Below, piece after piece: positions 1,641 to 34,216 of a stretch of DNA of 42,411 nt. Origin of the DNA: Acidobacteriota bacterium (lineage in GTDB: Bacteria; Acidobacteriota; Polarisedimenticolia; SMYD01); assembly GCA_004356015.1 (NCBI GenBank), contig SMYD01000013.1, positions 1 through 42,411 on the forward strand, read 5' to 3'. A program made the translations under genes and the position numbers. The stretch's first letter is position 1. Every line of letters starts with the position of its first letter. The notes beneath the pieces were generated by a model. That model saw nothing but the letters and a program-made list of their open reading frames with translations. It was not told the origin of the DNA and did not search any database.

Positions 1641-1670
1641 ATGCTAGGCGGCCGGACCGGTCGGGATCAA
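1641..1670 (-). promoter_or_regulatory. Predicted leaderless promoter of lptE-holA
   Basis: TTGATC (1670-1665) and TAGCAT (1646-1641) lie 18 bases apart on the minus strand. Six bases separate the -10 box from the GTG start of lptE. The -35 box overlaps the stop codon of the preceding CheY-like gene, which separates lptE-holA from the chemosensory operon. No Shine-Dalgarno sequence is present. Confidence 0.6.
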
Positions 1671-2068
1671 GGTCTGAGGCAGGCTTCGGCCCTCCGATCC
1701 CTCAGAACCTCCTCCACCCGGCGCACCAGCAATTCCGCTTCAACAGGCTTGGGAATATAAGCATCGGCACCCAGATCCAGACCTCGCTGGCGATCTTCAT
1801 CGGCGCCCTCAGTCGTGATGATGATGATGGGCAGGTCGCGGGTACGGGCATTGCTCCGTAACAAAGCCACCAGTTTGAGACCATCCATGATGGGCATGTT
1901 GATATCGGTGAGAACAAAATCGATCTCCTCGAACGCCATGCGCCGCAGCGCATCGGCCCCATCCACGGCTTCGATGATGCGGCACTCGGGAAACCTGCGC
2001 AACGAAAAACTGATGAGCTGGCGCATGGTCGGCGAATCCTCCACGATGAGAAATGTCATGGGGCTCAT
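1667..2068 (-). CDS. CheY-like single-domain response regulator (last gene of che operon)
   Basis: This 133-residue protein is one receiver domain. It shows the acidic pocket (V-E-D-S), the phosphoacceptor Asp in 'LTDINMPIMDG', the conserved Thr in 'ITTEGAD' and the Lys in 'YIPKPV', so it should accept phosphate from a CheA-type kinase. It has no output domain. The ATG overlaps the stop of the GAF gene (ATGA) and has a strong ribosome site (AAGGGAGG six bases upstream). It is the second CheY-like protein in the operon, so it could be an alternative output or a phosphate sink for CheA; the sequence does not decide between these. Confidence 0.9.
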   Translation of the reverse strand: MSPMTFLIVEDSPTMRQLISFSLRRFPECRIIEAVDGADALRRMAFEEIDFVLTDINMPIMDGLKLVALLRSNARTRDLPIIIITTEGADEDRQRGLDLGADAYIPKPVEAELLVRRVEEVLRDRRAEACLRP

Positions 2069-2916
2069 GCGCGCCTCCCTTCCGACTCGTCGACATGAGC
2101 GCCGGCCGGCGAAGCAGCCGGCCCGGCATCGTCGGACACCATCTCAACCTGCAGGAGCAGCTCATGCCAGGCCACGGGCTTGCCATTGGCCCGGCTCAGG
2201 AAGCGGCGGCGAAGGAGAGCGGACATCAGGGCTGTGCCCGCCGTCTCTGCCAGGAGGGTGAAGAGTTCATGATCCTTGGAAGTCAGAGATTTTTTCTGGG
2301 TGAACAGGCTGTGGACCTGGATGACACCCAACAACCTCCCGTCGGCCTTGAGGGGGACACAGGCAACAGGATTTCTGAAGTCGCCCTCCTGCCGGTCACC
2401 GTCGAAGAACGGAATTCCTGTCTTGGCCACCACACCCATGATGCCCGCGCTCAGCGGGATGCTGCGAGGATTATGGCCCTGGCCGCGCTCGCTGGCGACC
2501 TGGCTCAGAGTCTCCCCGTCACGGTTGAGGAGAAAAATGCCGAACTGCCGCGCGCCGACCAGATCCAGAAGAATTTCCGTCATGGAGGTGAGCACCGAGT
2601 CCCATTCCAAGGCTCGATGAAGATTGAAACCGGCCACGTAGAGGTTGGCCAGCAGGTCCTCCTGGACACCCTCGGGCCGGCGCTCTGTAGCCGTCTCCAG
2701 GCGCAGCGACAGATCACGGTTTTTCATCTCCAGCACCTTGACACGCTCCTCCAGAGATCTGGTCTGCGCCACGTCGGCGGCTTCCGGTCGCTGCGGGTCT
2801 TTCCGGAGTTGCAGGTTCTCGCGGGCGATTTCCCCATGGACGTATCTCAGGGTGTCCAGCGCTGCTTCGAACCGGGCATGGTGTGTTCCCTGCCCGTCTT
2901 TTCCCGGATTTCTCAT
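2065..2916 (-). CDS. Coiled-coil GAF-domain protein of che operon
   Basis: The 283-residue protein has a charged N-terminal half (residues about 15-85) with heptad-like spacing, probably a coiled coil. It is followed by a GAF domain of roughly 140 residues ('LARNxY'-type helix, then 'GARQFGIFLLNRDG', 'VPLKADGRLLGVIQVHS'). GAF domains bind small molecules or mediate protein contacts; no ligand can be named. A longer reading is possible, but the ATG at 2916 is preferred because it overlaps the cheB stop (ATGA) and is preceded by AAAGGGA. No kinase, cyclase or DNA-binding output domain is visible. In this setting it may be a sensory adaptor for the CheA kinase, which is an inference. Confidence 0.75.
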   Translation of the reverse strand: MRNPGKDGQGTHHARFEAALDTLRYVHGEIARENLQLRKDPQRPEAADVAQTRSLEERVKVLEMKNRDLSLRLETATERRPEGVQEDLLANLYVAGFNLHRALEWDSVLTSMTEILLDLVGARQFGIFLLNRDGETLSQVASERGQGHNPRSIPLSAGIMGVVAKTGIPFFDGDRQEGDFRNPVACVPLKADGRLLGVIQVHSLFTQKKSLTSKDHELFTLLAETAGTALMSALLRRRFLSRANGKPVAWHELLLQVEMVSDDAGPAASPAGAHVDESEGRRA

Positions 2917-4019
2917 GGGTTTCCCTTTCCCTGCTGGAACGGCATCGCCATCACTTCCTCCCCGGGATAAGACCTGCACCCCAGCGTCATGCTCTCCATG
3001 AGCGCGGCCATGGATTCCAGTGGCACGACGCGATCAATCATGCCGGCGCGGATGGCGTTTCCCGGCATTCCGAAGACGATGGCTGAACGTTCAGATTCTG
3101 CCACCGCCAGGCCGCCAGCCGCGGCAAGAGCCGAGATGCCACGGGTGCCATCATGCCCCATCCCCGTAAGAACGATTCCAGCCGCTGCCTCGCCGGCCAC
3201 GCGCGCCGCCGAATCCAGAAGGAGATCCCCGCTGGGCACATGAAGATCGCCCTCCTGCGTCGCCACCACTCTCATCCTGAAGCAACTTCCGGTCATCCCC
3301 TCCACAAGCAAATGCCGCCCGCCGGGAGCCAGAAGAATCTGTCCGGGACGCAACAGGTCGCCGTTTCTCGCCTCCCGTACCGGCAGAGAACAGATCGCAT
3401 CCAGACGACGCGCAAAGGGTCCGGTGAACTCGCCGGGCATATGCTGCACCAGAGCTACCGCAGCCGGAAAATCGGCCGGCAGCCGGGCCAGGATGTGTTG
3501 CAGCGCCTGAGGGCCACCGGTGGAGCTCACCATGGCGATGAGCCGGATTCCATGGCTCACTGCGGGCAGGCTCGCCGGAGGCCGTGGCCTTGGCACCGGG
3601 GCACCCTGAGAAACCAGCCGCTCTACCCGGGGACGTGCATGGCCAATCTGCAGGATCTTGGCCATGAGCTCCTCGCCGATGGACGGAAGGTCCGGGCTGA
3701 CCCGTCCCGGCTTGAGGACGAAATCGAGAGCGCCCAGCTCAAGGGCTTGGAAGAGGCTGTAATTGGACTCCCTGGAAGTGACCACAACAATGGGGAGCGG
3801 CTGTTCCGCCATGACCCAGCGCAGGAGGCTCAGACCGTCCATGCCGGGCATTTCCAGGTCCAGAGTCAGGACATGGGGCTCATGCTGCCGGATCATGCGA
3901 ATGCCCTCCAATCCATCCCGGGCCGCCCCCACGACCTGCAGATCAGGATGTCCGGCCAGCAATCGTGAGAGCGTAGCCCGGTTGTAGGCAGAATCATCGA
4001 TGATCAGAACCCGTGTCAC
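2913..4019 (-). CDS. cheB: Chemotaxis protein-glutamate methylesterase CheB
   Basis: This 368-residue protein has an N-terminal receiver (phosphoacceptor Asp54 in 'TLDLEMPGMDG', Lys in 'FVLKPG'), a Pro-rich linker, and a C-terminal methylesterase domain. The catalytic triad of the family is visible: Ser in 'SSTGGPQAL', His in 'VQHMP' and Asp in 'GMGHDG'. CheB removes methyl groups from chemoreceptors, and its activity is switched on by CheA-dependent phosphorylation. The start is GTG, overlapping the cheR stop (GTGA). All key residues are intact, so the protein is likely active although no receptor gene is in this operon. Confidence 0.95.
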   Translation of the reverse strand: MTRVLIIDDSAYNRATLSRLLAGHPDLQVVGAARDGLEGIRMIRQHEPHVLTLDLEMPGMDGLSLLRWVMAEQPLPIVVVTSRESNYSLFQALELGALDFVLKPGRVSPDLPSIGEELMAKILQIGHARPRVERLVSQGAPVPRPRPPASLPAVSHGIRLIAMVSSTGGPQALQHILARLPADFPAAVALVQHMPGEFTGPFARRLDAICSLPVREARNGDLLRPGQILLAPGGRHLLVEGMTGSCFRMRVVATQEGDLHVPSGDLLLDSAARVAGEAAAGIVLTGMGHDGTRGISALAAAGGLAVAESERSAIVFGMPGNAIRAGMIDRVVPLESMAALMESMTLGCRSYPGEEVMAMPFQQGKGNP

Positions 4020-4876
4020 CGCTCCTCCCGACGATAAGCCACATCGTTGTTCAGGCTGGCGAACTCGAACCGATCCGAGAGATCCAGAAGCGATTCCGAA
4101 TGACCCAGAAGCAGGTAGCCGCCTTCGTTGAGACGGTCATGGAAGAGGTTGATAACCTGGCGCCGCGCCTCCTGATGAAAATAAATGAGAACATTGCGGC
4201 AGAAAATTGCGTCGAATTTGACCAGGGGAAGATCGCCTGCCGGCCCCATGAGATTGCAGCGCCCGAATTGGACCATGCGGCGCACACGTGGCACCACCTG
4301 CATTCTGCCAGCCTCTGCTTCCTGAAAGTACCGTTCCTGGTAGCCGTCAGGCATGGAGCGAAAGGAAAAACGTCCATAGATCCCGCGCCTCGCCTTCTCC
4401 AGAGCTTTACGAGACTGATCCGATCCGAATATTTCCACGGCACCCTCCAGCGATGGATCGGTTTCCAGCACCGCCATGGCCAGTGAGTAGGTTTCTTCCC
4501 CGGTGGCACATCCGGCGCTCCACACGCGGACCCGGGCACCGGGCCGGGCCTTCCGCCGCTCCTGCAGAATCTCCCTGGCAAATGTCCAGATCTGAGATGG
4601 CTCGCGAAAAAAGTACGTTTCATTATTGGCCAGCGTTTCGAAAAGGGCTTCGATCTCAGCCTCGCTCTGTTCGTCATAGAGCAGGCGGTAGTAGTAATCC
4701 TGCAGGTTGTCCAGTCCCAGTTCGGCCATTCGCCGGGCCAGCCGGGCGCGGGCCATTTCACGGAATGAGTCGCGGAAAAGGAACCCGAACCGTCGATTGA
4801 GCAGTTCCAGGATTTGCCGAAGGATGTCGTCGGGTAGCTGGCAGGCTTCCACGGCGTGCCCGGTTGCCGGGGTCAC
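4016..4876 (-). CDS. cheR: Chemotaxis protein methyltransferase CheR
   Basis: The 286-residue product matches CheR, which methylates receptor glutamates with S-adenosylmethionine. The N-terminal helical domain is followed by 'NNETYFFRE', the SAM-binding 'SAGCATGEETYS' motif and 'DAIFCRNVLIYF'. The GTG start at 4876 is chosen because it overlaps the HEAT-gene stop (GTGA) and has GGGGGAG just upstream. Starting further upstream would run through the end of the HEAT gene. No C-terminal TPR extension is present. With CheB it forms the adaptation pair of this operon. Confidence 0.95.
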   Translation of the reverse strand: MTPATGHAVEACQLPDDILRQILELLNRRFGFLFRDSFREMARARLARRMAELGLDNLQDYYYRLLYDEQSEAEIEALFETLANNETYFFREPSQIWTFAREILQERRKARPGARVRVWSAGCATGEETYSLAMAVLETDPSLEGAVEIFGSDQSRKALEKARRGIYGRFSFRSMPDGYQERYFQEAEAGRMQVVPRVRRMVQFGRCNLMGPAGDLPLVKFDAIFCRNVLIYFHQEARRQVINLFHDRLNEGGYLLLGHSESLLDLSDRFEFASLNNDVAYRREER

Positions 4877-7083
4877 GTGGTCTCCCCCGGTTCGACGTCG
4901 AGGGTGGCGGAGATCTCCCGGCGGAGGCTCTCCCTGAGGACCGCTGCCAGGCCTTCCCGGACAGCAGGATCTTGAGCCGACGCCCACGCTGCCCGCAGAT
5001 CATCGGAGAACACGGATTGACCCTCTATCAGCAGGGCCGCTGCCGTCTCGGCAACGTCCTTTTCTGCCAGGGCGGACACAAGGTAGGAAAGGGCCGACTC
5101 CGGCTCGGCATGGTACAGGGCGCGCAGCAGCGCTTGCCTGGCCACCGCGTCCCTCTCCCTGTCCATGGCCCGGGCCAGGGGAATGAACGCGCCGGCGTGC
5201 CCCGACTCCCCCAGACTCTCGGCGGCGGCGCAGCGCACGCTCCAGTCCTGGTCCTCCAGGCCCGCCGCCATCATCTCCATGGGTACCGCCTCACCGCCGG
5301 CACCCAGAGCACGCAAGACAGCGCGCCGGATTTCCGGGTCCGGATCCCTGGCCACCTCCTGGAGCACCTCACGGCTCTCCGGCCAGAGCTGTCCCAGGGC
5401 ACAAATTGCGCTGGCGCGCACAGGTGTCGCTTCACGCCGAGCAACCTCCTCCAGGGCAGCCTGCACCTCGACGGCGGCGTGATCCGCCAGGGCCTGGGCA
5501 GCCCGGCAGCGGACCCAGATGGTGCGATCCTGTAAAGCCGCCAGGAGCACCCCCCTGGCGCGGTCGTCACGCAGACGGCCGACCGCCGCAACTGCCTCCT
5601 CACGCACCCTGGCATCCTCATCCGCGAGGGCCACCGTCAAACGCCAGAGCCGTTGCGGATCGGTACTCTCACCGAGCAGTGAAACGGCTGTACGGCGCAC
5701 CGATGGTGCCGGATCGTGAAGGGCCAGATCCAGCGTCTCCGCCGAGCCCTCGCTGCCCAGACCCGCGATGACGGCCAGCGCCGCGCAGCGCATCTCCGCA
5801 CTGGAAGAAGCGGTGAGACCCTCGACCCGGCCGGAAACTTCATCCCTGTTATCGTCGGAAAGAGCCGCCAGGCGGAGAAGACCTTTGACGGCCTCCTGGG
5901 ACACAAGCAGCGACAGGTCCCCCAGCGCCCCCACCAGAGCGTCCAGATCCTCACGCCGCGGCTCAGCAGCCATTGCGGCCGCAGCCGCCTGCCTCACGAT
6001 ATCTTCTTCATGCTCCAGATGGCGGCGCAGAAAGAGATCCACGGCTGAATCACGACGCAAGCCGATGATTTCGACAAGCCTGTGGATGGCATCGGCGGGC
6101 AGAACTGCCTCGGCGGCGACCTTCAGGATTGTCCGTGCGTGCTCCTGGGCCAGGTCGCGCAATGCCTCCACCGCCAGATCAGCCATGAGCGGCTCTGCCA
6201 GGCTCTCCACCATGGCTGGGATAGCGGCTGGGTTGCGGCACCATCCCAGTGTGCGCAGAGCGTACCTTTTGCGATCTCCGTCACTTCGCCCGACCATATC
6301 TTTCAGACCCTGAAACAGGCCTGAACTGGTGACCTCCTGCATCTCTTCAACGATCCGGTTCACCAGGACTTCTCGCGCCCCGCCGATACGGGCGCGCTCC
6401 ACCATCTCGTTGAGAGCAACCAGTGCCGTTCGATCGGGGCAAGGCGTTCCCCCCACCATCGCGTTCACCAGTGGCCCGATGGCAGATTCATCGCCAATGC
6501 GGCCCATGGCTCTCAGAACAGCTTTGCGGTAATACGGTTCATCAACGAGGGGAATAAGCCGGGATACAGCGGCAGCGTGTCCCACCTCCCCCAGAGCGTC
6601 AATGGCGTAGAACATCTGCCAGCGCTCACCGCTGTCCAGCACCGAGAGAAGCGTGGGGACGCAGGAGGGATCTTTCAGCGCACCCAGGCAACTGATGGCC
6701 GCGGCAGCTACCGACGGATCGGCGTGGCGGGCCAGGGGAATGACAACTTCCACCGTCTCACGGCTGGGAATCTTTCCCATGATGACCAGGATCTGGATGG
6801 TGAGGTCCCTCCGGCGCACAGGATCGAGAGCTCGTATGAGCCCGGGAAGCGCTTCCTCCCGGTAGCGCATGAGGACGTCAGCGGCTGAACTGCGCGCCGT
6901 GGCATCCTCCGGGTCAGACAGTGCTGCCAGCAGGCCGGGCATGGTCTCGGCGGGATCGCGCCCGGCCAGACCGGTGATGGCGGCGCGGCGCACTCTCAGG
7001 CTGGAGTGCCCCAGCAGAGCCGTCAATTCTCCCACGCTTTCCTGACCATCCAGGAAAGGGTGCTCTTCCAGATGGGTGCTCAC
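4873..7083 (-). CDS. Large HEAT-repeat protein of che operon
   Basis: The 736-residue protein consists almost entirely of tandem HEAT/PBS-lyase-type repeats of about 30 residues. Recurring units look like 'DPSVAAAAISCLGALKDP', 'DEDARVREEAVAAVGRLRDD' and 'DQDWSVRCAAAESLGES'. No signal peptide, membrane segment or enzymatic motif is seen, so it is probably a cytoplasmic solenoid scaffold. It lies between cheR and the Zn-ribbon gene, with a GTG start four bases after the preceding stop. HEAT-repeat proteins have been reported in some chemosensory clusters (for example in Myxococcus). Here a role in bringing Che proteins to a target is plausible but inferred. Confidence 0.85.
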   Translation of the reverse strand: MSTHLEEHPFLDGQESVGELTALLGHSSLRVRRAAITGLAGRDPAETMPGLLAALSDPEDATARSSAADVLMRYREEALPGLIRALDPVRRRDLTIQILVIMGKIPSRETVEVVIPLARHADPSVAAAAISCLGALKDPSCVPTLLSVLDSGERWQMFYAIDALGEVGHAAAVSRLIPLVDEPYYRKAVLRAMGRIGDESAIGPLVNAMVGGTPCPDRTALVALNEMVERARIGGAREVLVNRIVEEMQEVTSSGLFQGLKDMVGRSDGDRKRYALRTLGWCRNPAAIPAMVESLAEPLMADLAVEALRDLAQEHARTILKVAAEAVLPADAIHRLVEIIGLRRDSAVDLFLRRHLEHEEDIVRQAAAAAMAAEPRREDLDALVGALGDLSLLVSQEAVKGLLRLAALSDDNRDEVSGRVEGLTASSSAEMRCAALAVIAGLGSEGSAETLDLALHDPAPSVRRTAVSLLGESTDPQRLWRLTVALADEDARVREEAVAAVGRLRDDRARGVLLAALQDRTIWVRCRAAQALADHAAVEVQAALEEVARREATPVRASAICALGQLWPESREVLQEVARDPDPEIRRAVLRALGAGGEAVPMEMMAAGLEDQDWSVRCAAAESLGESGHAGAFIPLARAMDRERDAVARQALLRALYHAEPESALSYLVSALAEKDVAETAAALLIEGQSVFSDDLRAAWASAQDPAVREGLAAVLRESLRREISATLDVEPGETT

Positions 7084-7087
7084 GAGA

Positions 7088-8077
7088 TCACGTGCGCAGG
7101 CCCGCGGGCATCCCCGCAGCAGAACGGTGGCGCTCCACAGCGTCCTTCACCGTCTGGTGGTAAACCTGCCCATGGCCTTCCAGATGGCCGAAGCGCGCGC
7201 GCACCAGTGCCTCCCCCTCACGGATCTCCTGGGCGAACGCCTGCAGGAAGGTTCCGGAGGCCATCACCCCATCGGCCGTATCCGGGTTGTACAGGATGAT
7301 GTCGCCCACCACGATGCGGGCCAGCCGCGTGAGTTCATCCCATTCATCACCATCGGTGTCGGCCACGGACGAAGGCAAGGCCTCGCCTGCCCGGCAGAAT
7401 TGCACAAGCTCTCGATGCATTTCATCCCGCTTCCCGTTGCCGTCCAGAAATCCATCGGCTCCGTAGAGGTCGTCAGGATGGCGCATGAATCGGTCCCGGC
7501 GATAGAGGGATCCGACCAGCAGGACCCGCGTCTGGTTCAGCTGCGGGTGGCGTTTGATCTCCGAGCACAAGGTCACGCCCAGGACATGGGGCAGGAATAC
7601 GTTCAGGACCACCAGCCGCGGAGGCCAGCCGGCCAGGAGGCGGCGTACCTCGAGACCATCCTCGACAGCCTTGACTTGGTACCCTTCATGTTGAAGGCTT
7701 CCTGTGAACAGATCCCGCAACACCGGATCCTGTTCCGCCACCAGAGCCCTGGGCCTGCCGGGGGTATGCCCCGCTCCGTGAACATCTGCAGCCTCTGGTG
7801 CATCGCCATCCTGCTGCCCTGTGGCGGTCTGCGCCTTTGCCCCTGTGGTGTCAACCTCCCGGGGACGAGACAACGCAACCACATGGGAGGACGCCTGGGG
7901 CTCATGGATTCCGGGCACATCCCCGGACGCCGGCTGTAAAGCCGCCGGGATATCGACGCGCATGACCGCTTCGCATGTCCGGCAGCGGATACGCACACCC
8001 TGGCTGCCGAATCTGACGGCGTCATAGCGATAACGTCGACCGCATGTGGGGCAACCGATGAGAACCGTGCCTACCAT
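7088..8077 (-). CDS. Zinc-ribbon protein with degenerate receiver domain
   Basis: This 329-residue protein opens with an MJ0042-type zinc ribbon (C-P-T-C near residue 10, C-R-T-C near residue 33). A disordered linker of about 70 residues follows, then a receiver-like domain (about 112-215), then a helical C-terminal region of about 100 residues. The receiver lacks the active site: the phosphoacceptor position reads 'VVLNVFLP' (Asn instead of Asp), the acidic pair is E-Q-D, and the conserved Lys is not where expected. It is therefore a pseudo-receiver that should not be phosphorylated. The ATG has an excellent ribosome site (GAGGAG, five bases). It may be a phosphorylation-independent partner of the che proteins. 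Confidence 0.8.
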   Translation of the reverse strand: MVGTVLIGCPTCGRRYRYDAVRFGSQGVRIRCRTCEAVMRVDIPAALQPASGDVPGIHEPQASSHVVALSRPREVDTTGAKAQTATGQQDGDAPEAADVHGAGHTPGRPRALVAEQDPVLRDLFTGSLQHEGYQVKAVEDGLEVRRLLAGWPPRLVVLNVFLPHVLGVTLCSEIKRHPQLNQTRVLLVGSLYRRDRFMRHPDDLYGADGFLDGNGKRDEMHRELVQFCRAGEALPSSVADTDGDEWDELTRLARIVVGDIILYNPDTADGVMASGTFLQAFAQEIREGEALVRARFGHLEGHGQVYHQTVKDAVERHRSAAGMPAGLRT

Positions 8078-8086
8078 GACTCCTCC

Positions 8087-8593
8087 TCAGACCTTGAGAA
8101 CAGCTTCGCGGTCCAGGATGATGAGAATCGACTCCTGGCGCGTGTCACAAACCCCGGAAATACCCCGTGCAGCCGCATCAACCAGAGTCGAAGGCGGCGG
8201 TGCGATGCTGTCTACCGGCAACTTCTCCACCTGCAGCACTTCATCCACAAGCAACCCCACCGATTCTTCTCCGTGGCGAAGAACAATGATGCGGGAAGCA
8301 GACCCAATCTCCGCTGCTTCCAGTCCCATGCGAACGCGACCGTCCACCACTGTGATGATGCGCCCGCGCACGGAGATGATGCCGTGAATAACGTCCGCCG
8401 CCTGGGGGATGGGCGTCGCTGAGCGATACTTGAGGATCTCGAGGATCTCCTGGATATCCAGGGCATACCGTTCACCAGCCAGACGGAACGCCAGAACCTG
8501 AAGAACAGGAACCGTGGCGCCCGTTCGCGCCTCGTTCAGGGCCATGTCGTGAGATGGCGCCAAATCGCTGATATTCATGGTTTTCCGGCTCAC
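8087..8593 (-). CDS. cheW: Chemotaxis coupling protein CheW
   Basis: The 168-residue protein is a single CheW domain with an N-terminal extension of about 30 residues. Diagnostic segments are 'RYALDIQEILEILKY', 'PIPQAADVIHGIISVRGRI' and 'VGLLVDEVLQVEKL'. CheW couples receptors to CheA in the signalling array. The usual 'DLR' after the second strand reads 'VDGRVRMG', a mild variation. The GTG start overlaps the cheA stop (GTGA). Confidence 0.93.
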   Translation of the reverse strand: MSRKTMNISDLAPSHDMALNEARTGATVPVLQVLAFRLAGERYALDIQEILEILKYRSATPIPQAADVIHGIISVRGRIITVVDGRVRMGLEAAEIGSASRIIVLRHGEESVGLLVDEVLQVEKLPVDSIAPPPSTLVDAAARGISGVCDTRQESILIILDREAVLKV

Positions 8594-10623
8594 GGGGAAG
8601 CCTCCGTTTCAAGCCGTGTGCTGCCGAACATGCGCTGAGGCGTGGCTACCAGGGACGCCAGGTCCAGCACCAGTGCGGCCCGGCCACCACCCATCTCCGT
8701 GGCACCTGAGAGTCCCGGCAGGCCATCAAGTAATGAGCCCACCGGTTTGATCACCACCTCATGCTGACCCAGGAGTTCATCCACTCCCATGGCCAGTCGT
8801 CCCCCTCCGACCCGCGCGACCACGATGAACCCGGGTTTGTCATGTTCCCCCATGGGTATGTGCAGAAGCTCACGCAGGTCCGCATAGGGCATGGTTTCGC
8901 CGCGGAGACGCAGGACAGGGCTCTGGGCCACCGTCTCCACACGCTCCTGCTGGTAGCGCAAAGTTTCCGAAATTCCGGACACGGGAATGGCAAAATCCAT
9001 CTCCCCCGAGCGCACGACCATGCAAGGCATGATGGCCAGAGTGATAGGGAGAATAATCTCGACGGTGGTACCGGCGCCTGACTCGCTGAACAGATGCACT
9101 TCGCCACCAAGCTTCTGGAGCTCACTCTTCACCACATCCAGACCGACTCCACGACCGGAAACTTCCCCCACCTGTCCCACCGAACTGAATCCCGCCTGGA
9201 AGACCAACTGCCTGGCGACATCCAGGTTGCATTCGGCGTGCTCCTCGAGCAATCCCCTCCGCACAGCCGCCTGGCGCACAGCCTCCAGATCCAGGCCTCG
9301 CCCGTCATCACTCAGGCTCAGGACGACTTCGTTCCCCCTCTGGACCGCCTTCAAGAGCAGCCGCCCGGTGGGCTCTTTCCCCGCCTGCTCGCGTTCCCGA
9401 GGCGATTCGATCCCGTGGTGAATCGCGTTCCGCACCAGATGGATCAAGGGACTCTGCAGGTGATCCATCATCATCTTGTCCAGCTCGGTGCCCGAGCCTT
9501 CTGTTTCCAGCGTCACGTTCTTGCCCGAGGCACGCGCGAGCTTTCTCACCAGGCGCTTGAGCCTGCCCACAATGCGCGCCACCGGCACCATGCGGGCGCC
9601 GATGACCGAGCACTGCAGATCTTGAAGTTTCTTATCCAGTTCGCCGGATGCCCGATGCAACTCCTGGCCCAGAGAGTGCGTCCCCTCCCCTTCCATGAGT
9701 TCACGGGAGACACCATCCATGCGATGGCGAAACAGGAGGAGTTCACCCACAACATCCATGATCCGGTCCAGGCGCTCCAGGGGAACACGGACGCTGGCCC
9801 GGTCCAGAGATTCGGTAAAGACATGGTCCTCGTCCCCCGTTTCAGCGGGAGTCTCTTCATGGTGGACCGATGTTCCCTCAGCCGGTGATTCATGGACGGT
9901 CACAACCTCGAGACTTGTGTCTTGCGGGAGGCGCACCTCGATGTCGCCTGCAGGGGACCCACTCGCGTAAAGGAGACGAAAGGAAATTCGCGCCTCGGCG
10001 TCATTGGCCGCATAGGACGGCAGGGTACTGATGACCTCCCCACAGTCATTGAGTTGATCAGCCAGGCGCCGCAAATCTGTATCGAAGGTCTCCAGGGGCA
10101 GAGTGACACTCACGAGCCATAACTTGTGCCCGGCGTGAATGTTCGCTTCCAGGCGATGTTCTTCGTAGCGGGTGAGGGAGCGCAGAATATCCTCAGGCAG
10201 AGAGGTGCTGCTGCCAGCGGTGGCCGACTCCTTCTCCTGCCCAACAGCCAGCCTTTTCAGCAGGCCGGCTGACGCCGCCTCAGCATCCTTTCCCGCGGCC
10301 ACCATGGACTCCATGCGTTCATGGGATTCAAACAGGATGTCCAGAGCCGACTCATCCAGGGAGTGCCGACCCATGCGCAGGCCGTCAAGAAAGTCTTCCA
10401 GAACATGGGCCAGCCGGCCAAGGTGATCATGGCCGAAAAGACCGGACAGCCCTTTGAGAGAATGCACGTGGCGAAAAGCAGCGTTGATTCCCTGGGGACG
10501 CACTCTTCCCTGGCGCCTCTCCTTGTCCAGATTCTGCAATTCACGGCCCAGTTCCTCCAGCAGGTCTTCCGCCTCGCTGACGAACTCGCAGCCGTCGGCC
10601 CTCGTATCCTCGCGCCCGGTCAC
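8590..10623 (-). CDS. cheA: Chemotaxis histidine kinase CheA
   Basis: The 677-residue protein has the CheA layout: an N-terminal HPt domain with the phosphorylated His54 in 'HSLKG', a linker, a dimerisation helix pair ('LDRIMDVVGELLLFRHRM'), a histidine-kinase ATPase domain and a C-terminal CheW-like domain. The ATPase shows the N box ('HLVRNAIHHGIE'), the G1 box ('DDGRGLD') and the G2 box ('GRGVGLDVVK'). No receiver is fused at the C-terminus. The GTG start at 10623 is chosen because it follows the cheY stop by one base and has GGAGG six bases upstream; a longer reading would overlap cheY. All catalytic motifs are intact, so it should phosphorylate CheY, CheB and perhaps the second CheY-like protein. 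Confidence 0.95.
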   Translation of the reverse strand: MTGREDTRADGCEFVSEAEDLLEELGRELQNLDKERRQGRVRPQGINAAFRHVHSLKGLSGLFGHDHLGRLAHVLEDFLDGLRMGRHSLDESALDILFESHERMESMVAAGKDAEAASAGLLKRLAVGQEKESATAGSSTSLPEDILRSLTRYEEHRLEANIHAGHKLWLVSVTLPLETFDTDLRRLADQLNDCGEVISTLPSYAANDAEARISFRLLYASGSPAGDIEVRLPQDTSLEVVTVHESPAEGTSVHHEETPAETGDEDHVFTESLDRASVRVPLERLDRIMDVVGELLLFRHRMDGVSRELMEGEGTHSLGQELHRASGELDKKLQDLQCSVIGARMVPVARIVGRLKRLVRKLARASGKNVTLETEGSGTELDKMMMDHLQSPLIHLVRNAIHHGIESPREREQAGKEPTGRLLLKAVQRGNEVVLSLSDDGRGLDLEAVRQAAVRRGLLEEHAECNLDVARQLVFQAGFSSVGQVGEVSGRGVGLDVVKSELQKLGGEVHLFSESGAGTTVEIILPITLAIMPCMVVRSGEMDFAIPVSGISETLRYQQERVETVAQSPVLRLRGETMPYADLRELLHIPMGEHDKPGFIVVARVGGGRLAMGVDELLGQHEVVIKPVGSLLDGLPGLSGATEMGGGRAALVLDLASLVATPQRMFGSTRLETEASP

Positions 10624-10624
10624 A

Positions 10625-10996
10625 TCAATCCTCCGCGGGCACCAGCGAGCGCAAGACATCTTCCAGTTCTTCGGGCTGGAACGGCTTGGTCATGTAGGCG
10701 GCAGCACCGGCCGCCAATCCCCTGTCGCGATCCTCCTGGGCCATCTGGGTGGAAATGATGATGACGGGAATTGCACGATACCCCGGGTGAGCCTTGAGGT
10801 AACGCAACAGTTCGAAGCCGTTGATATCCGGCATGTTGATATCGGCGATGATGGCGTCGAAGGCCTGTCCGGGCAGAACTCTGAGAGCTTCAAATCCTGT
10901 ACTCGATTCTGTAACCTCCGCTCCGAAGGCTTTTTCCACGGTCCCGCAGATGAAGGCCCGGGTGGAAGGTGAGTCATCCACAACCAGGATTTTCAT
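10625..10996 (-). CDS. cheY: CheY-type response regulator (first gene of che operon)
   Basis: This 123-residue receiver has all functional residues: the acidic pair in 'VVDDSPS', the phosphoacceptor Asp in 'IIADINMPDINGFE', a Ser/Thr in 'IISTQMA' and Lys in 'YMTKPF'. It has no output domain. The start at 10996 is set by the strong GGAGGAGGG ribosome site directly upstream; earlier in-frame starts read through the leader. It is the first gene after a well-formed promoter at 11045-11073, with a leader of about 40 bases. It is the presumed main phosphoacceptor of the neighbouring CheA. Confidence 0.9.
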   Translation of the reverse strand: MKILVVDDSPSTRAFICGTVEKAFGAEVTESSTGFEALRVLPGQAFDAIIADINMPDINGFELLRYLKAHPGYRAIPVIIISTQMAQEDRDRGLAAGAAAYMTKPFQPEELEDVLRSLVPAED

Positions 10997-11044
10997 GCTC
11001 CCTCCTCCCGGGCACACAGCGGCCCGATGGCGCACGCGAAGCGG

Positions 11045-11091: not shown

Positions 11092-12087
11092 TCAGGAGCG
11101 CAGAGCCAGGAGGCCGGACAGAGCCATTCGGGCCGCTCCTGCAAGGGCGATCAGGGGCCGGAGATCGGGCAAGGAACCGCCCTTGGGACCAGAATCCGCA
11201 TAAATGACCGCGATGATGCCGTCAGGCCCGAGGAGGGGAAAAGCAACGGCGTCCCCTTGCGGGGGATCTCCCAGACCGGGTGGCAGCGCCTTCTCAGGTG
11301 GACAGGTCGCACGTTGCAGGCGCGCCGACCAGAAGGCGCGCGACGGCAGGTTGTCTCTGTCCAGCGGGATGTTCTCCTCGTCTCCCACCACATCCGTGCC
11401 GAATCGCCCGAGAACCGTGAGGTGATCCCCGTCAACCTCCATGAGCATGCCGCGGGCGGCCAGGTCGGCCGCCACCCGCATGACCAGGAGCAGAATCGCC
11501 ACGCGATCGCGGGCATGGCAGAGTTCTTCCAGAGCACCCAGCAGCACACTGTCCGCCTGGAGTGGTGCCTGCTGGCTGTTCCGGCCCGAACTGTCCTGCT
11601 CTGCCGCCGGAAGGGGGGCCCCTTCTCCAGGGTCACCAGCCTCATCCTCTCCAGCCACCTGCCGGGCAAAGGCACTGAGGGCATTATCCAGGTGTTCAGG
11701 CTGAATGCGGCGCAAATCGGGCTTGCGGATCACCCGGGTGGCTCCCAGGCTGCGGGCGGCTTGTTCCAGCCAGAGGGCGTCGCTGTTCATGACCGCAACA
11801 ATGGACCGGGTTCCTGCCGGTCGCAATCGTCGCAGAAGATCCAGGCCACCCAGATGACCATTGCCCTCACCAGGCTGAATGAGATCCACGACCAGTGACG
11901 GTCTGCGCCCTTCCTCTTCCAGACGCCGGAACGCAGCCTCAGCCGCCGGCAGGTCGTCACAGCAGATCACGGCGTGGCCACGCTTCTCCAGCCCTCCGGC
12001 CATGGCACGTCGATAAAGCCCCTCGTCATCGACAATGACAACCGGGGTCTGGGCTGGGTAAAGTATCGGTTCCACCGCGCGCTCCAC
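11092..12087 (-). CDS. Response regulator with C-terminal GAF-like domain
   Basis: The 331-residue protein has an N-terminal receiver (about 15-130) with the acidic pair in 'VIVDDEG', phosphoacceptor Asp in 'LVVDLIQPG' and Lys in 'VIRKPDL', so it may be phosphorylated. A low-complexity linker (about 145-175) leads to a C-terminal domain (about 180-330) resembling a GAF fold ('FPLLGPDGIIAVIYAD'). No DNA-binding or enzymatic output is seen. The GTG start has no clear ribosome site; a TATATG stretch lies a few bases upstream, and the true start could be a few codons further in. It lies between nusB and the che promoter, so it may be transcribed either from upstream or on its own. Confidence 0.75.
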   Translation of the reverse strand: MERAVEPILYPAQTPVVIVDDEGLYRRAMAGGLEKRGHAVICCDDLPAAEAAFRRLEEEGRRPSLVVDLIQPGEGNGHLGGLDLLRRLRPAGTRSIVAVMNSDALWLEQAARSLGATRVIRKPDLRRIQPEHLDNALSAFARQVAGEDEAGDPGEGAPLPAAEQDSSGRNSQQAPLQADSVLLGALEELCHARDRVAILLLVMRVAADLAARGMLMEVDGDHLTVLGRFGTDVVGDEENIPLDRDNLPSRAFWSARLQRATCPPEKALPPGLGDPPQGDAVAFPLLGPDGIIAVIYADSGPKGGSLPDLRPLIALAGAARMALSGLLALRS

Positions 12088-30736: not shown

Positions 30737-30830
30737 CGGTATCCATCCTCCCTGTGGCCCTCCCCATGGCTCTCACCACCACATGCAATCTCGGGGCCAG
30801 GTTCGACTGCGCCATCACAACGCGCCGGAA

Positions 30831-30839
30831 ACTGTATCA
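30831..30839 (-). promoter_or_regulatory. Possible extended -10 promoter of moxR
   Basis: On the minus strand T-G-A-TACAGT forms an extended -10 box; no -35 box at 16-18 bases is convincing. The leader would be about 88 bases. It sits back to back with the promoter of the chemoreceptor gene, so one regulator could act on both. The call is tentative. Confidence 0.35.
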
Positions 30840-30840
30840 T

Positions 30841-30868
30841 TTGCCCCTTCCCGCCCCCAGCCTATATT
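30841..30868 (+). promoter_or_regulatory. Promoter of the second chemosensory set
   Basis: TTGCCC (30841-30846) and TATATT (30863-30868) are 16 bases apart. Transcription would start about 32 bases before the receptor ATG. The -35 box lies next to the possible moxR promoter on the other strand. Confidence 0.55.
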
Positions 30869-30906
30869 CGCTCTGTTCCGCCCTCACGCCCGGAAATCGA
30901 GCGACC

Positions 30907-32217
30907 ATGCGCAAAAAACTGGCTCTGGCATTCCTGGCCGTCATCGCCCTGATTCTTGGCGGCAACCTGGCCCTGGATCTGGCCCTTCCCCGGGACACCT
31001 CCTCGGGGCTGACATTCCGTATGCTTGGCCAGGTCAGCCTCATGCTGGCCATTGGCCTCACCGCGGCTCTCCTCCTGGCCCGCAACTTCACCAGGGACCT
31101 GCTGCGCCTGGCCGCCGCGGCACGGGAGATGAGCCGGGGGACCCTGCCGGGGGCCGTTCATATCAAGTCCCGGGACGAAGTGGGTGACCTTGCCCGGGCG
31201 TTCAACGACATGGGAGCCGCACTGCGGGCCGCTCTCTGCGAGATCCAGCGCAGCGCAGAACAGATGGCGGAGGCTGCTCTTCTTCAGTCCGGCGGCAGCC
31301 GGGAACTGGATCAGGGCACGGAAGAGATCGCCCGTCTTTCCCGGGAGATCTCACGCGGCGCCGATCAGCAGGCCGACGGCTCCCGCCGGACCTCAGCCAT
31401 AGCCCGCCAGCTGGCGACCTCCCTGGCCGAGGCCGCAACCAGTTGCCATGAAACAGCCCGGGCCGCCGAGAAAGCCCGCGAAGGGGCGGTGACCGGGGTC
31501 GACTCCGCCCGCCAATCGGCGGAGAGTCTGCTTGCCGTCGCGTCATCCAGCGAGCGCTCACGCCTGAGCGTCGAATCGTTCCACGCCAGCGCCGAGGAGA
31601 TCGAGCAAATCGTCGATTTCATCCGGGGCGTGGCACGACAGACTGAGGTCCTGGCGCTGAACGCGACCATCGAGGCGGCCAAGGCCGGGGATGAAGGGTA
31701 CGGCTTCGCCGCCGTGGCCGAGGAGATCCGGGGACTGGCGGATCGCACCGCTCAGTTCAGCCATCGCATCCACGGATTGGTCCGCGCCATCACCCGGCGT
31801 GCCGCGGACGTGGCCAGAACCATGGAGGAGGGCGGCCGGGTGGCGGCCCAGGGCCGGGAAACAGCCCTCCATGCCCGCACGACGCTCGAACAAAACCGCG
31901 CCATATTTGCACAGGTTGTGCGAGCCGTTGACAAGGTGGCATCCGTGACCTCGGAGCAGAGTCTGAATGCGGAAAGACTCGCCGCCGACATGGAGGAGAT
32001 GGCCGCCATCGCCCGCGACCAGGCGGAGAGGACGGAACGCACCTCCGCTGCCGTCAGCGAACAGAAGATCTCCACCCAGGGGATGTCCCAGGCGGCCCAG
32101 ACCCTGGCCGACTCCGCCCGCCTGCTGCGCGAGAAGGCCGGCCGGTTCCAGACCGTGCAGACCATCAGGGATCACGGCGAGGACCCCGTCAAACAGACAA
32201 TCGTGGATCGCCCATGA
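30907..32217 (+). CDS. Methyl-accepting chemotaxis protein without a ligand-binding domain
   Basis: The 436-residue receptor has two membrane segments (about 5-25 and 38-59) joined by a loop of only about a dozen residues, so it has no periplasmic sensing domain. A HAMP domain follows (about 60-112, 'IKSRDEVGDLARAFNDMG'), then a long cytoplasmic signalling part with the hairpin tip 'QTEVLALNATIEAAKAGDEG' and 'GFAAVAEEIRGLAD', a close match to the conserved receptor tip. No C-terminal pentapeptide tether for CheR is visible. The ATG at 30907 is chosen because earlier starts lack a membrane protein pattern. It may sense membrane state, redox or the partner complex rather than a solute. Confidence 0.9.
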   Translation: MRKKLALAFLAVIALILGGNLALDLALPRDTSSGLTFRMLGQVSLMLAIGLTAALLLARNFTRDLLRLAAAAREMSRGTLPGAVHIKSRDEVGDLARAFNDMGAALRAALCEIQRSAEQMAEAALLQSGGSRELDQGTEEIARLSREISRGADQQADGSRRTSAIARQLATSLAEAATSCHETARAAEKAREGAVTGVDSARQSAESLLAVASSSERSRLSVESFHASAEEIEQIVDFIRGVARQTEVLALNATIEAAKAGDEGYGFAAVAEEIRGLADRTAQFSHRIHGLVRAITRRAADVARTMEEGGRVAAQGRETALHARTTLEQNRAIFAQVVRAVDKVASVTSEQSLNAERLAADMEEMAAIARDQAERTERTSAAVSEQKISTQGMSQAAQTLADSARLLREKAGRFQTVQTIRDHGEDPVKQTIVDRP

Positions 32218-32684
32218 ACACGGCCCACCTCCTGTTTCCCCAGGCTGATTTTTTTCTCTCTCTGCCGGCCGACCGAATCCAGCGCATTCAGGAGGCCGGA
32301 TCGGTCGTGCCCTTCCCCGGCGCCGGTGGTGCTGTCCGGGGCCTGTCGGTCTGTGGAGGAAGAAGCCGCATCGTCCTGAACCTGCCGGGCCTGCTCCCGC
32401 CCGGCGCTGCGGGAAGCGACATGATCCTGGCCGATGGACCGCCTCTCTGGGTCCTTCTGGAAGGCGAAGCCGACGGCCTGGTTCTCGAGATCCAGGCGCC
32501 GCTCTCCTTCTCCACACCCGTGGCGAAGGCGCCGCGGCCAACCGGGACCATGGTGATTTGTGACCGTGGTGAGCGCCATTCCGCCGGGGTCGCGGGCCTG
32601 ATCTCGACCCGGCGATTGCTGGTTTCATTCCGCCGCACAGCCGGTTCCCTGACCGCCATCCCTCCCTCCGGTGGGACGCGGTGA
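32214..32684 (+). CDS. Divergent CheW-like coupling protein
   Basis: The 156-residue protein sits between receptor and kinase genes, overlapping the receptor stop (ATGA). The segment 'VVPFPGAGGAVRGLSVCGG' lines up with the CheW pattern 'P-x-P-x-A-P-x-x-V-x-G-L', and 'SRIVLNLPGLL' with the following strand, but the protein is otherwise diverged and Gly/Leu-rich. It probably couples this receptor to the adjacent CheA; its divergence from the other CheW in the window suggests the two sets do not freely exchange adaptors. The assignment rests mainly on position. Confidence 0.6.
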   Translation: MNTAHLLFPQADFFLSLPADRIQRIQEAGSVVPFPGAGGAVRGLSVCGGRSRIVLNLPGLLPPGAAGSDMILADGPPLWVLLEGEADGLVLEIQAPLSFSTPVAKAPRPTGTMVICDRGERHSAGVAGLISTRRLLVSFRRTAGSLTAIPPSGGTR

Positions 32685-34216
32685 TGACCCACTCCGATCG
32701 GTACATGGCGCTCTTCCTGGAGGAGAGCCGCGATCTCCTGCGGCAGGGAGAAGAGTGCCTGCTCGACCTGGAGAAAAATCCGGATCTCTGCAGCACAGCG
32801 CCGTTGAACCGTATCTGGCACAGCATCAAAGGCATGGCGGCAGCACTGGATCTGGAAGACCTGGTCACCCTGGCCCACGCCGCGGAGGAAGGTCTCCCGT
32901 CACCGGATCTGTCTCCGGAGCAACGCCACACTGCTCTGGACCGCCAGGGCCAGGCCATGCAGACAGCCGCCCGCCTCCTGGCGGCGTTGCAGGACGGCCG
33001 GCCCGCCCCGGCCCCTCTGGTCAGCTCAGCGCCAGTCCCGGCGCCACGTGTGCCCGAGACGCTGCGGGTCGCGGTGCGGGAACTGGACGCGCTTCTGGCC
33101 GACGTGGTGGACCTGGAAGGATCACTGGCTGCCGGCGACGACCTGGCCGGTGCCGCCGGCCAGGATGACGCCACGCTCCCGACGACCCGGTGCCTGGCAC
33201 GCATGCGGCACAGACTTGCCCGCCTGCGCCACCTGCCGTTTTCCACCATCGTCCCCTCCCTGGAGAGTCTGGTGCTGACCGGCGCCCGCCAACTGGAAAG
33301 CCGGGCCCATCTCGAGGTCCTTGGCGCCGAGCACCGGCTGGAACGGGGAACCCTGGAACTCCTGGCCGAGATTCTCCCCCACCTGCTGCGCAACGCCCTG
33401 GCTCATGGCATCGAGCCTGAGGCCGTGCGCCGCCGGGCCCGCAAGCCTGAAAGTGGCCTGCTGCGCATCCTTATCCAGCCGCGACGGGGCCGCGTGCGTA
33501 TCGTGGTGGAAGATGATGGTCGCGGTGTCGACCTGAACGCCCTGCAAACAGCCGTTGGCGCATCGACCGGGGAGGGCCGGGCCCTGATGCGGCCGGGTGC
33601 GGACCTTGCTCCGGTACTCTGCCGTCCCGGATTCTCCACCGCGCGGACCACGAATACGGTGGCGGGGCGGGGCACCGGTCTTGATGCGGTCCGCGAGCGC
33701 CTGGCGCTGGCCGGCGGCGGAATGAGCATTCGCCGGCGGAGTCAACATGGAACCCGTGTCATGCTCGAAGTCCCGGCCACCCTGGCCGTCACCACCTGTC
33801 TGGTGGCCCGGATCGGACACAACCACCTGGGATTCCCTCTCCCCGGCATCTGCGGGCTGGAGGTCATTCCCGCCGGCACCACGGCAAGCGGCGGACCTCT
33901 GGAACGCCTCCTGGCCGGCTCGCCCGCGCGGCCGCCGGCTGAATATGCCCTGGAGTTGTCCCTCCGCGGGCAGGGCGGCCACACCTACCATCTCCAGGTG
34001 GACCAGATCATGGGGCGCATGGAGGCTGTGGTCCAGCCCCTTTCGGGTCTGAAGACAGGCAGCGCGATCCTGGGTACCGCGGTGTGGAAGGCCGCAGTCC
34101 CCGTCCTCATCCTGGACCCGGCGATTCTCTTCCTCCACCTGCCCCGGCCATGGGCCGGCGACCAGGATGACAGCGCGGGTGGTCTCCCTACAGGTGCTTC
34201 TCCAGCAGCCGGCTGA
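32684..34216 (+). CDS. Second CheA-type histidine kinase
   Basis: The 510-residue kinase has an N-terminal HPt domain with His46 in 'IWHSIKG', a short Pro/Ala-rich linker with no P2-type CheY-binding domain, a reduced dimerisation region, an ATPase domain (N box 'HLLRNALAHGIE', G1 'DDGRGVD', G2 'GRGTGLDAVRERL') and a C-terminal CheW-like domain. All kinase motifs are present, so it is likely active. The lack of a P2 domain and of a linked regulator leaves its phosphate acceptor unknown; the receivers near cheA at 8590-10996 are candidates. The ATG overlaps the preceding stop (TGATG). The final 29 bases overlap the thioredoxin gene tail to tail. Confidence 0.88.
   Translation: MTHSDRYMALFLEESRDLLRQGEECLLDLEKNPDLCSTAPLNRIWHSIKGMAAALDLEDLVTLAHAAEEGLPSPDLSPEQRHTALDRQGQAMQTAARLLAALQDGRPAPAPLVSSAPVPAPRVPETLRVAVRELDALLADVVDLEGSLAAGDDLAGAAGQDDATLPTTRCLARMRHRLARLRHLPFSTIVPSLESLVLTGARQLESRAHLEVLGAEHRLERGTLELLAEILPHLLRNALAHGIEPEAVRRRARKPESGLLRILIQPRRGRVRIVVEDDGRGVDLNALQTAVGASTGEGRALMRPGADLAPVLCRPGFSTARTTNTVAGRGTGLDAVRERLALAGGGMSIRRRSQHGTRVMLEVPATLAVTTCLVARIGHNHLGFPLPGICGLEVIPAGTTASGGPLERLLAGSPARPPAEYALELSLRGQGGHTYHLQVDQIMGRMEAVVQPLSGLKTGSAILGTAVWKAAVPVLILDPAILFLHLPRPWAGDQDDSAGGLPTGASPAAG

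Follow-up and report, generated by a model that had tools for sequence, protein, structure and literature searches.

The gene at 7088..8077 (reverse strand) encodes a protein that we rather favour, by analogy with the polarity proteins of Myxococcus xanthus, as a single-chain, phosphorylation-independent regulator of MglA resembling the RomR receiver and RomX, and this protein would bind MglA itself. The gene lies in a chemosensory (che) operon within the window, by which we mean the whole stretch of 42,411 nucleotides of an Acidobacteriota bacterium contig (SMYD01000013.1) analysed here. Through this protein, and with no phosphorylation of it, the chemosensory system is probably connected to the polarity switch by which the cell sets its front end. 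Even for M. xanthus there is no settled account of how chemosensory signals reach MglA. With a receiver and RomX joined in one unphosphorylatable polypeptide of a che operon, their contact would be fixed, and the gene order names candidate partners. The features of the operon and of the gene are as follows.

1667..4987, reverse strand: cheR, cheB, a GAF gene and a second cheY (Pfam and synteny)
4873..7083, reverse strand: HEAT-repeat protein, next gene of the operon (PF13646, E=5e-59)
7088..8077, reverse strand: zinc ribbon–linker–pseudo-receiver–RomX gene, 329 aa (open reading frame and translation)
7127..7351, reverse strand: RomX domain, about residues 243-317 (profile A1 against PDB 8ZNA; Foldseek)
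7388..7750, reverse strand: pseudo-receiver, residues 110-230 (PF00072; the D, T and K catalytic positions are all replaced)
7454..7468, reverse strand: LYGAD motif, residues 204-208, in a remodelled alpha4-beta5 region (near-invariant in 39 sequences)
7601..7603, reverse strand: codon AAC of Asn159 at the phospho-acceptor position (sequence and alignment)
7973..8053, reverse strand: MJ0042-type zinc ribbon with Cys9, Cys12, Cys32 and Cys35
8087..8593, reverse strand: cheW, the preceding gene (PF01584 and synteny)
8590..10659, reverse strand: cheA (Hpt, H-kinase_dim, HATPase_c and CheW domains)
10625..11035, reverse strand: cheY-like receiver with Asp and Lys intact (PF00072, E=4.7e-25; residues by inspection)
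11092..12087, reverse strand: receiver/GAF-like gene next to nusB, whose relatives have an added N-terminal DUF4388 (PATAN) domain

The gene starts with an ATG at 8077 and stops at 7088, and is separated by 9 bp from cheW upstream and by 4 bp from the HEAT-repeat gene downstream. The operon runs in the order nusB, DUF4388/receiver/GAF gene, cheY, cheA, cheW, the gene 7088..8077, HEAT-repeat gene, cheR, cheB, GAF gene and cheY. Apart from small losses or contig ends, this order from nusB to cheY is conserved in eight families (f1, f14, f21, f22, f34, f39, f46 and f48), in all of which the HEAT gene adjoins the orthologue of 7088..8077, and the assignment of the protein to a che operon in the initial annotation is thereby borne out. 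In complete operons the orthologue always sits between cheW and the HEAT gene. This position speaks for a scaffold or decoy of the che system, as was suggested at first. In such a role the pseudo-receiver would bind, with no turnover, to CheA, CheW or the HEAT protein, and would tune the phosphorylation of CheY, for whose place on CheA a receiver fold could compete, while RomX would serve as an adaptor unrelated to MglA. The evidence against this explanation comes from the distribution of the gene and its domains, which is described below.

Some other chemosensory loci were noted in passing. A second cluster lies at 30754-34216 (forward strand) of the window, and consists of a HAMP-MCP and a CheA-like kinase of 511 aa, in which Pfam detects Hpt and HATPase_c domains and no H-kinase_dim or CheW domain. 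In family f7 (L046:3151-3744, L042, L044, L047, L050, L051, L052), cheB is a methylesterase domain without receiver, and the f7 locus is missing the HEAT gene and cheR.

Orthologues of 7088..8077 are known from 37 or more genomes of the phylum. We built a profile (A2) from 17 of them and ran it against 396 genomes of the phylum, where 36 full-length members scored above 198 bits and formed a clear group, followed by a gap in score. Adding three divergent or fragmentary members gave the set of 39 receiver-bearing homologues used below. A contig scan gave one true orthologue, which comes from a record of the same genus (an Acidobacteria bacterium MAG), and a second hit that resembles a generic receiver.

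The N-terminal zinc ribbon named in the initial annotation is matched above cut-off by NCBIfam TIGR02098 (MJ0042_CXXC) and below threshold by Pfam PF13717 at residues 7-39. Where members carry the ribbon, its four cysteines are almost always retained. A comparison of the two members of the window's genus gives dN/dS values of 0.04 for the zinc ribbon, about 0.18 for the receiver, 0.18 for the C-terminal domain and 0.56 for the linker.

The receiver domain is matched above cut-off by Pfam PF00072 at residues 112-217 (E=1.9e-10). Here the N of the segment LVVLNVFLP is residue 159, and alignment pairs this Asn with the phospho-Asp of RpaA, in agreement with the initial observation that Asn stands where Asp is expected. 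The other active-site positions are also changed: Thr is replaced by Gly189, the conserved Lys, reported as lacking from the start, by Gly213, and the acidic pair is Glu115/Gln116. The operon encodes four further receivers (10625-11035, 2913-4019, 1667-2068 and 11092-12087), and inspection shows Asp and Lys in all of them. The same replacements run through the family. At the phospho-acceptor position, the 39 homologues have Asn in 31, Ser in three, Glu in three, Gly in one and Ala in one, and Asp in none (0 of 39 receiver-bearing homologues in the phylum). The Lys position holds Glu (20), Asp (9), Pro (4), Thr (3) or Gly (2), with one gap, and Lys in none of the 39, and the Thr position holds Gly in 36 and Ala in three. 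Thus the phospho-Asp, Thr/Ser and Lys of canonical receivers and response regulators are missing family-wide, the features are those of a pseudo-receiver, and the domain is predicted to be incapable of phosphorylation in the usual way, as was first thought.

Since none of the 39 homologues retains Asp, a local mutation at this position is ruled out, and the substitution is a fixed one. In the family tree, whose deep forks are weak, Ser arose three times and Glu once, each inside an Asn background. It follows that the Asn is old; Asp is absent from all 39 sequences. A new motif, RxFxRxPxxLYGAD, occupies the alpha4-beta5 region and is almost invariant across the 39 sequences.

It could be argued that the receiver is a functionless relic in decay, with zinc ribbon and RomX alone mattering, as every catalytic residue is lost and one relative (in genome G002) has no receiver at all. 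However, dN/dS of the receiver is lower than that of the neighbouring linker, and the new motif is near-invariant over a deep tree, so that we regard this explanation as very improbable. Decay of the gene as a pseudogene is ruled out by the dN/dS value and motif conservation. Judged from these sequence comparisons, the receiver is an old, constrained and working pseudo-receiver with a conserved surface.

A different explanation holds that the domain is still a switch, operated by another route such as a ligand or metal, modification of Asn/Ser, or an MglA-dependent contact, and that it gates RomX. In accordance with this, the first acidic residue is Asp or Glu in 34 of 39 homologues, and the position of CheY Tyr106 is Tyr or Phe in 36 of 39. 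Moreover, binding of SgmX by the pseudo-receiver of FrzS depends on MglA-GTP (PMC12632262). However, with Thr, Lys and the second acidic residue gone, metal-dependent chemistry is unlikely, and we consider a switch of this type unlikely as a whole, if worth keeping in mind. In the single-chain MglA regulator that we prefer, the receiver cannot take a phosphate and would therefore serve as a constitutive binding surface.

The C-terminal region, described at first only as helical, is helical and can now be identified as a RomX domain. It looks nameless because neither Pfam nor NCBIfam matches anything in this part of the protein. When a profile of 12 orthologous C-termini (A1) was run against PDB, the best match was RomX of M. 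xanthus (8ZNA; E=1.9e-13 over 67 residues), with the next match at 0.011. Five residues never vary in the profile (L, R, D, Y, R), and M. xanthus RomX has each of them. An AlphaFold model of the full-length protein from a single sequence had a pLDDT of 42 and was set aside. The C-terminal domain was modelled from the window sequence and one orthologue with moderate confidence (pLDDT 72). The top Foldseek match of this model was again 8ZNA, with a probability of 0.99 and a TM of 0.60 but an E-value of 0.2, and the next match had a probability of 0.28. By profile and by predicted fold, the C-terminus belongs with RomX, and a domain unrecognised by Pfam and NCBIfam now carries a name that bears a function.

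RomX does not stand alone in this family: every full-length member has it on one chain with the zinc ribbon and the pseudo-receiver. Among the papers covered by a literature search, from which the RomX paper of 2019 and two preprints of 2024 were absent, none described a RomX fusion. Other carriers of the domain were seen in the phylum. The commoner type, found in most other genomes, consists of a GAF domain, a long acidic/Pro-rich linker and a C-terminal RomX ('ARRFARLLVSEIKLYNE'), for example L058:5024-6253 in the window's genome (G000:C146). A zinc ribbon-RomX protein of 133 aa is encoded at L063:4736-5137 (G050), and a coiled-coil protein of 962 aa at L069:2656-5544 (G055) has RomX at its end. 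RomX is thus a mobile domain across the phylum, carried on zinc ribbons, GAF domains and coiled coils.

The genome of the window has mglB and mglA next to recR (G000:C6), at a site that the gene 7088..8077 does not adjoin. The MglA encoded there aligns with M. xanthus MglA over the whole length (E=9e-96), and the MglB with M. xanthus MglB (2e-40). A second MglA-like GTPase (G000:C56:7785-8366), 56% identical, is embedded in an open frame that extends to 526 aa, and such long frames with an MglA domain recur across the phylum. Of 149 near-complete genomes of the phylum, 98 have both RomX and MglA, six have RomX without detected MglA, nine have MglA only and 36 have neither. This co-occurrence (Fisher p=6e-20) ignores kinship, and its signal comes largely from other RomX proteins, namely the GAF-RomX type. 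MglA is present in every carrier of the gene within the same set.

As for the motility machinery, PilB/PilT-type ATPases were found in all 18 genomes tested, whereas FliG was absent from each of 15 carriers examined, the receiver-less G002 among them, and for this reason a flagellar role is rejected. Because of these two results, type IV pili and not flagella are the likely machine, and the motility output of the protein would likely run through them.

Several lineages have lost che genes. In the f10 locus, only nusB, the DUF4388/receiver/GAF gene and the orthologue of 7088..8077 remain. Four carriers of the gene (G012, G018, G027 and G033) have no match genome-wide to PF02895, the CheA dimerisation domain, or to PF00015 (MCP), and two of them (G012 and G018) are rated 100% complete. 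The gene is therefore not confined to genomes that have CheA and receptors. In G008 the orthologue directly follows nusB, and in G002 (L155:2235-3293) the gene after nusB encodes a zinc ribbon and RomX without a receiver. The lasting part is RomX plus the zinc ribbon, while chemotaxis and, in one case, the receiver have been lost. Since the DUF4388/receiver/GAF gene (11092-12087) adjoins the orthologue in che-less genomes, its product may be the true partner of the protein.

The survival of the gene in four genomes without CheA and MCP, the persistence of RomX where the receiver is lost, and the way in which RomX follows MglA across the phylum all count against the che scaffold or decoy introduced above, and we think it quite unlikely. 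As the main role, a che-only decoy or scaffold is not supported, given the RomX domain and the che-less carriers: the characterised partner of RomX is MglA and not CheA or CheY, and the receiver-less relative points the same way. What may be kept of the original proposal is a wider scaffold bridging the che array and MglA, which is possible.

In the mechanism that we propose for the single-chain MglA regulator, the pseudo-receiver, which follows the zinc ribbon and a flexible linker and is covalently joined to RomX, would occupy the place of the RomR receiver. Locked in one state, it would offer a constitutive binding or docking surface through the conserved alpha4-beta5 motif, in contact with RomX or with the HEAT protein. 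The likely job of the protein would be to hold or activate MglA, as a GEF or as an effector, where its partners set the site, these being the che array, the HEAT protein and the DUF4388/receiver/GAF protein. Surface motility that depends on MglA, probably driven by type IV pili, would be under the control of the CheA-CheY pathway through other members of the operon and not through phosphorylation of this protein, and encoding the regulator in this operon would allow the array to be coupled with MglA-driven motility. The fullest form of this proposal, to which we give about an even chance, is a natural one-chain RomR-receiver/RomX complex with a permanently locked receiver, which couples the array to MglA outside Myxococcota without phosphorylation and which in some lineages survived the loss of the chemosensory system and now regulates MglA by itself.

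In M. xanthus, the receiver of RomR binds RomX, and RomX engages MglA-GTP (PMC12719032, PMC9481161). The RomR/RomX complex, described as a GEF or, in a later view, as an effector, determines which pole leads in movement by type IV pili and in gliding (PMC9481161, PMC10329633, PMC12719032). RomX of M. xanthus (8ZNA) is a small stand-alone protein, whereas here it forms the tail of a zinc-ribbon/pseudo-receiver protein in a che operon. The protein resembles RomR in having a receiver on the N-terminal side that would work with RomX on MglA. In RomR the mutation D53N lowers and D53E raises the reversal frequency (PMC3441718), and Asn and Glu, the residues of these mutants, occur naturally in this family, where the corresponding site holds Asn and rarely Ser or Glu. 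However, RomR keeps its phospho-Asp, whereas Asn159 takes its place here, and RomR has a disordered linker and an MglC-binding, Glu-rich C-terminus, in whose place this protein has RomX. FrzS, and likewise AglZ, is similar in lacking the phospho-Asp, in the change of Thr to Gly, and in MglA-dependent polarity without phosphorylation (PMC1974792, PMC12632262). FrzS differs in its coiled-coil C-terminus, its retained Lys and the absence of a zinc ribbon and of RomX. The zinc ribbon of GltJ/AgmX is part of an MglA-responsive switch. It is also of the MJ0042 type (PDB 7ZOK) and matches ours weakly in sequence, but GltJ sits in the membrane as a part of the gliding motor and has neither receiver nor RomX. 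The genes romR and romX are not known to be part of the frz operon. The Frz system of M. xanthus is comparable as a che-type operon acting on the MglA polarity module (PMC10329633, PMC3441718), but it acts through FrzX and FrzZ as outputs, while in our case the che operon itself encodes the RomX protein. Compared at the sequence level, the whole protein is neither RomR, as it has no Asp and no RomR-C, nor FrzS, as RomX replaces the coiled coil.
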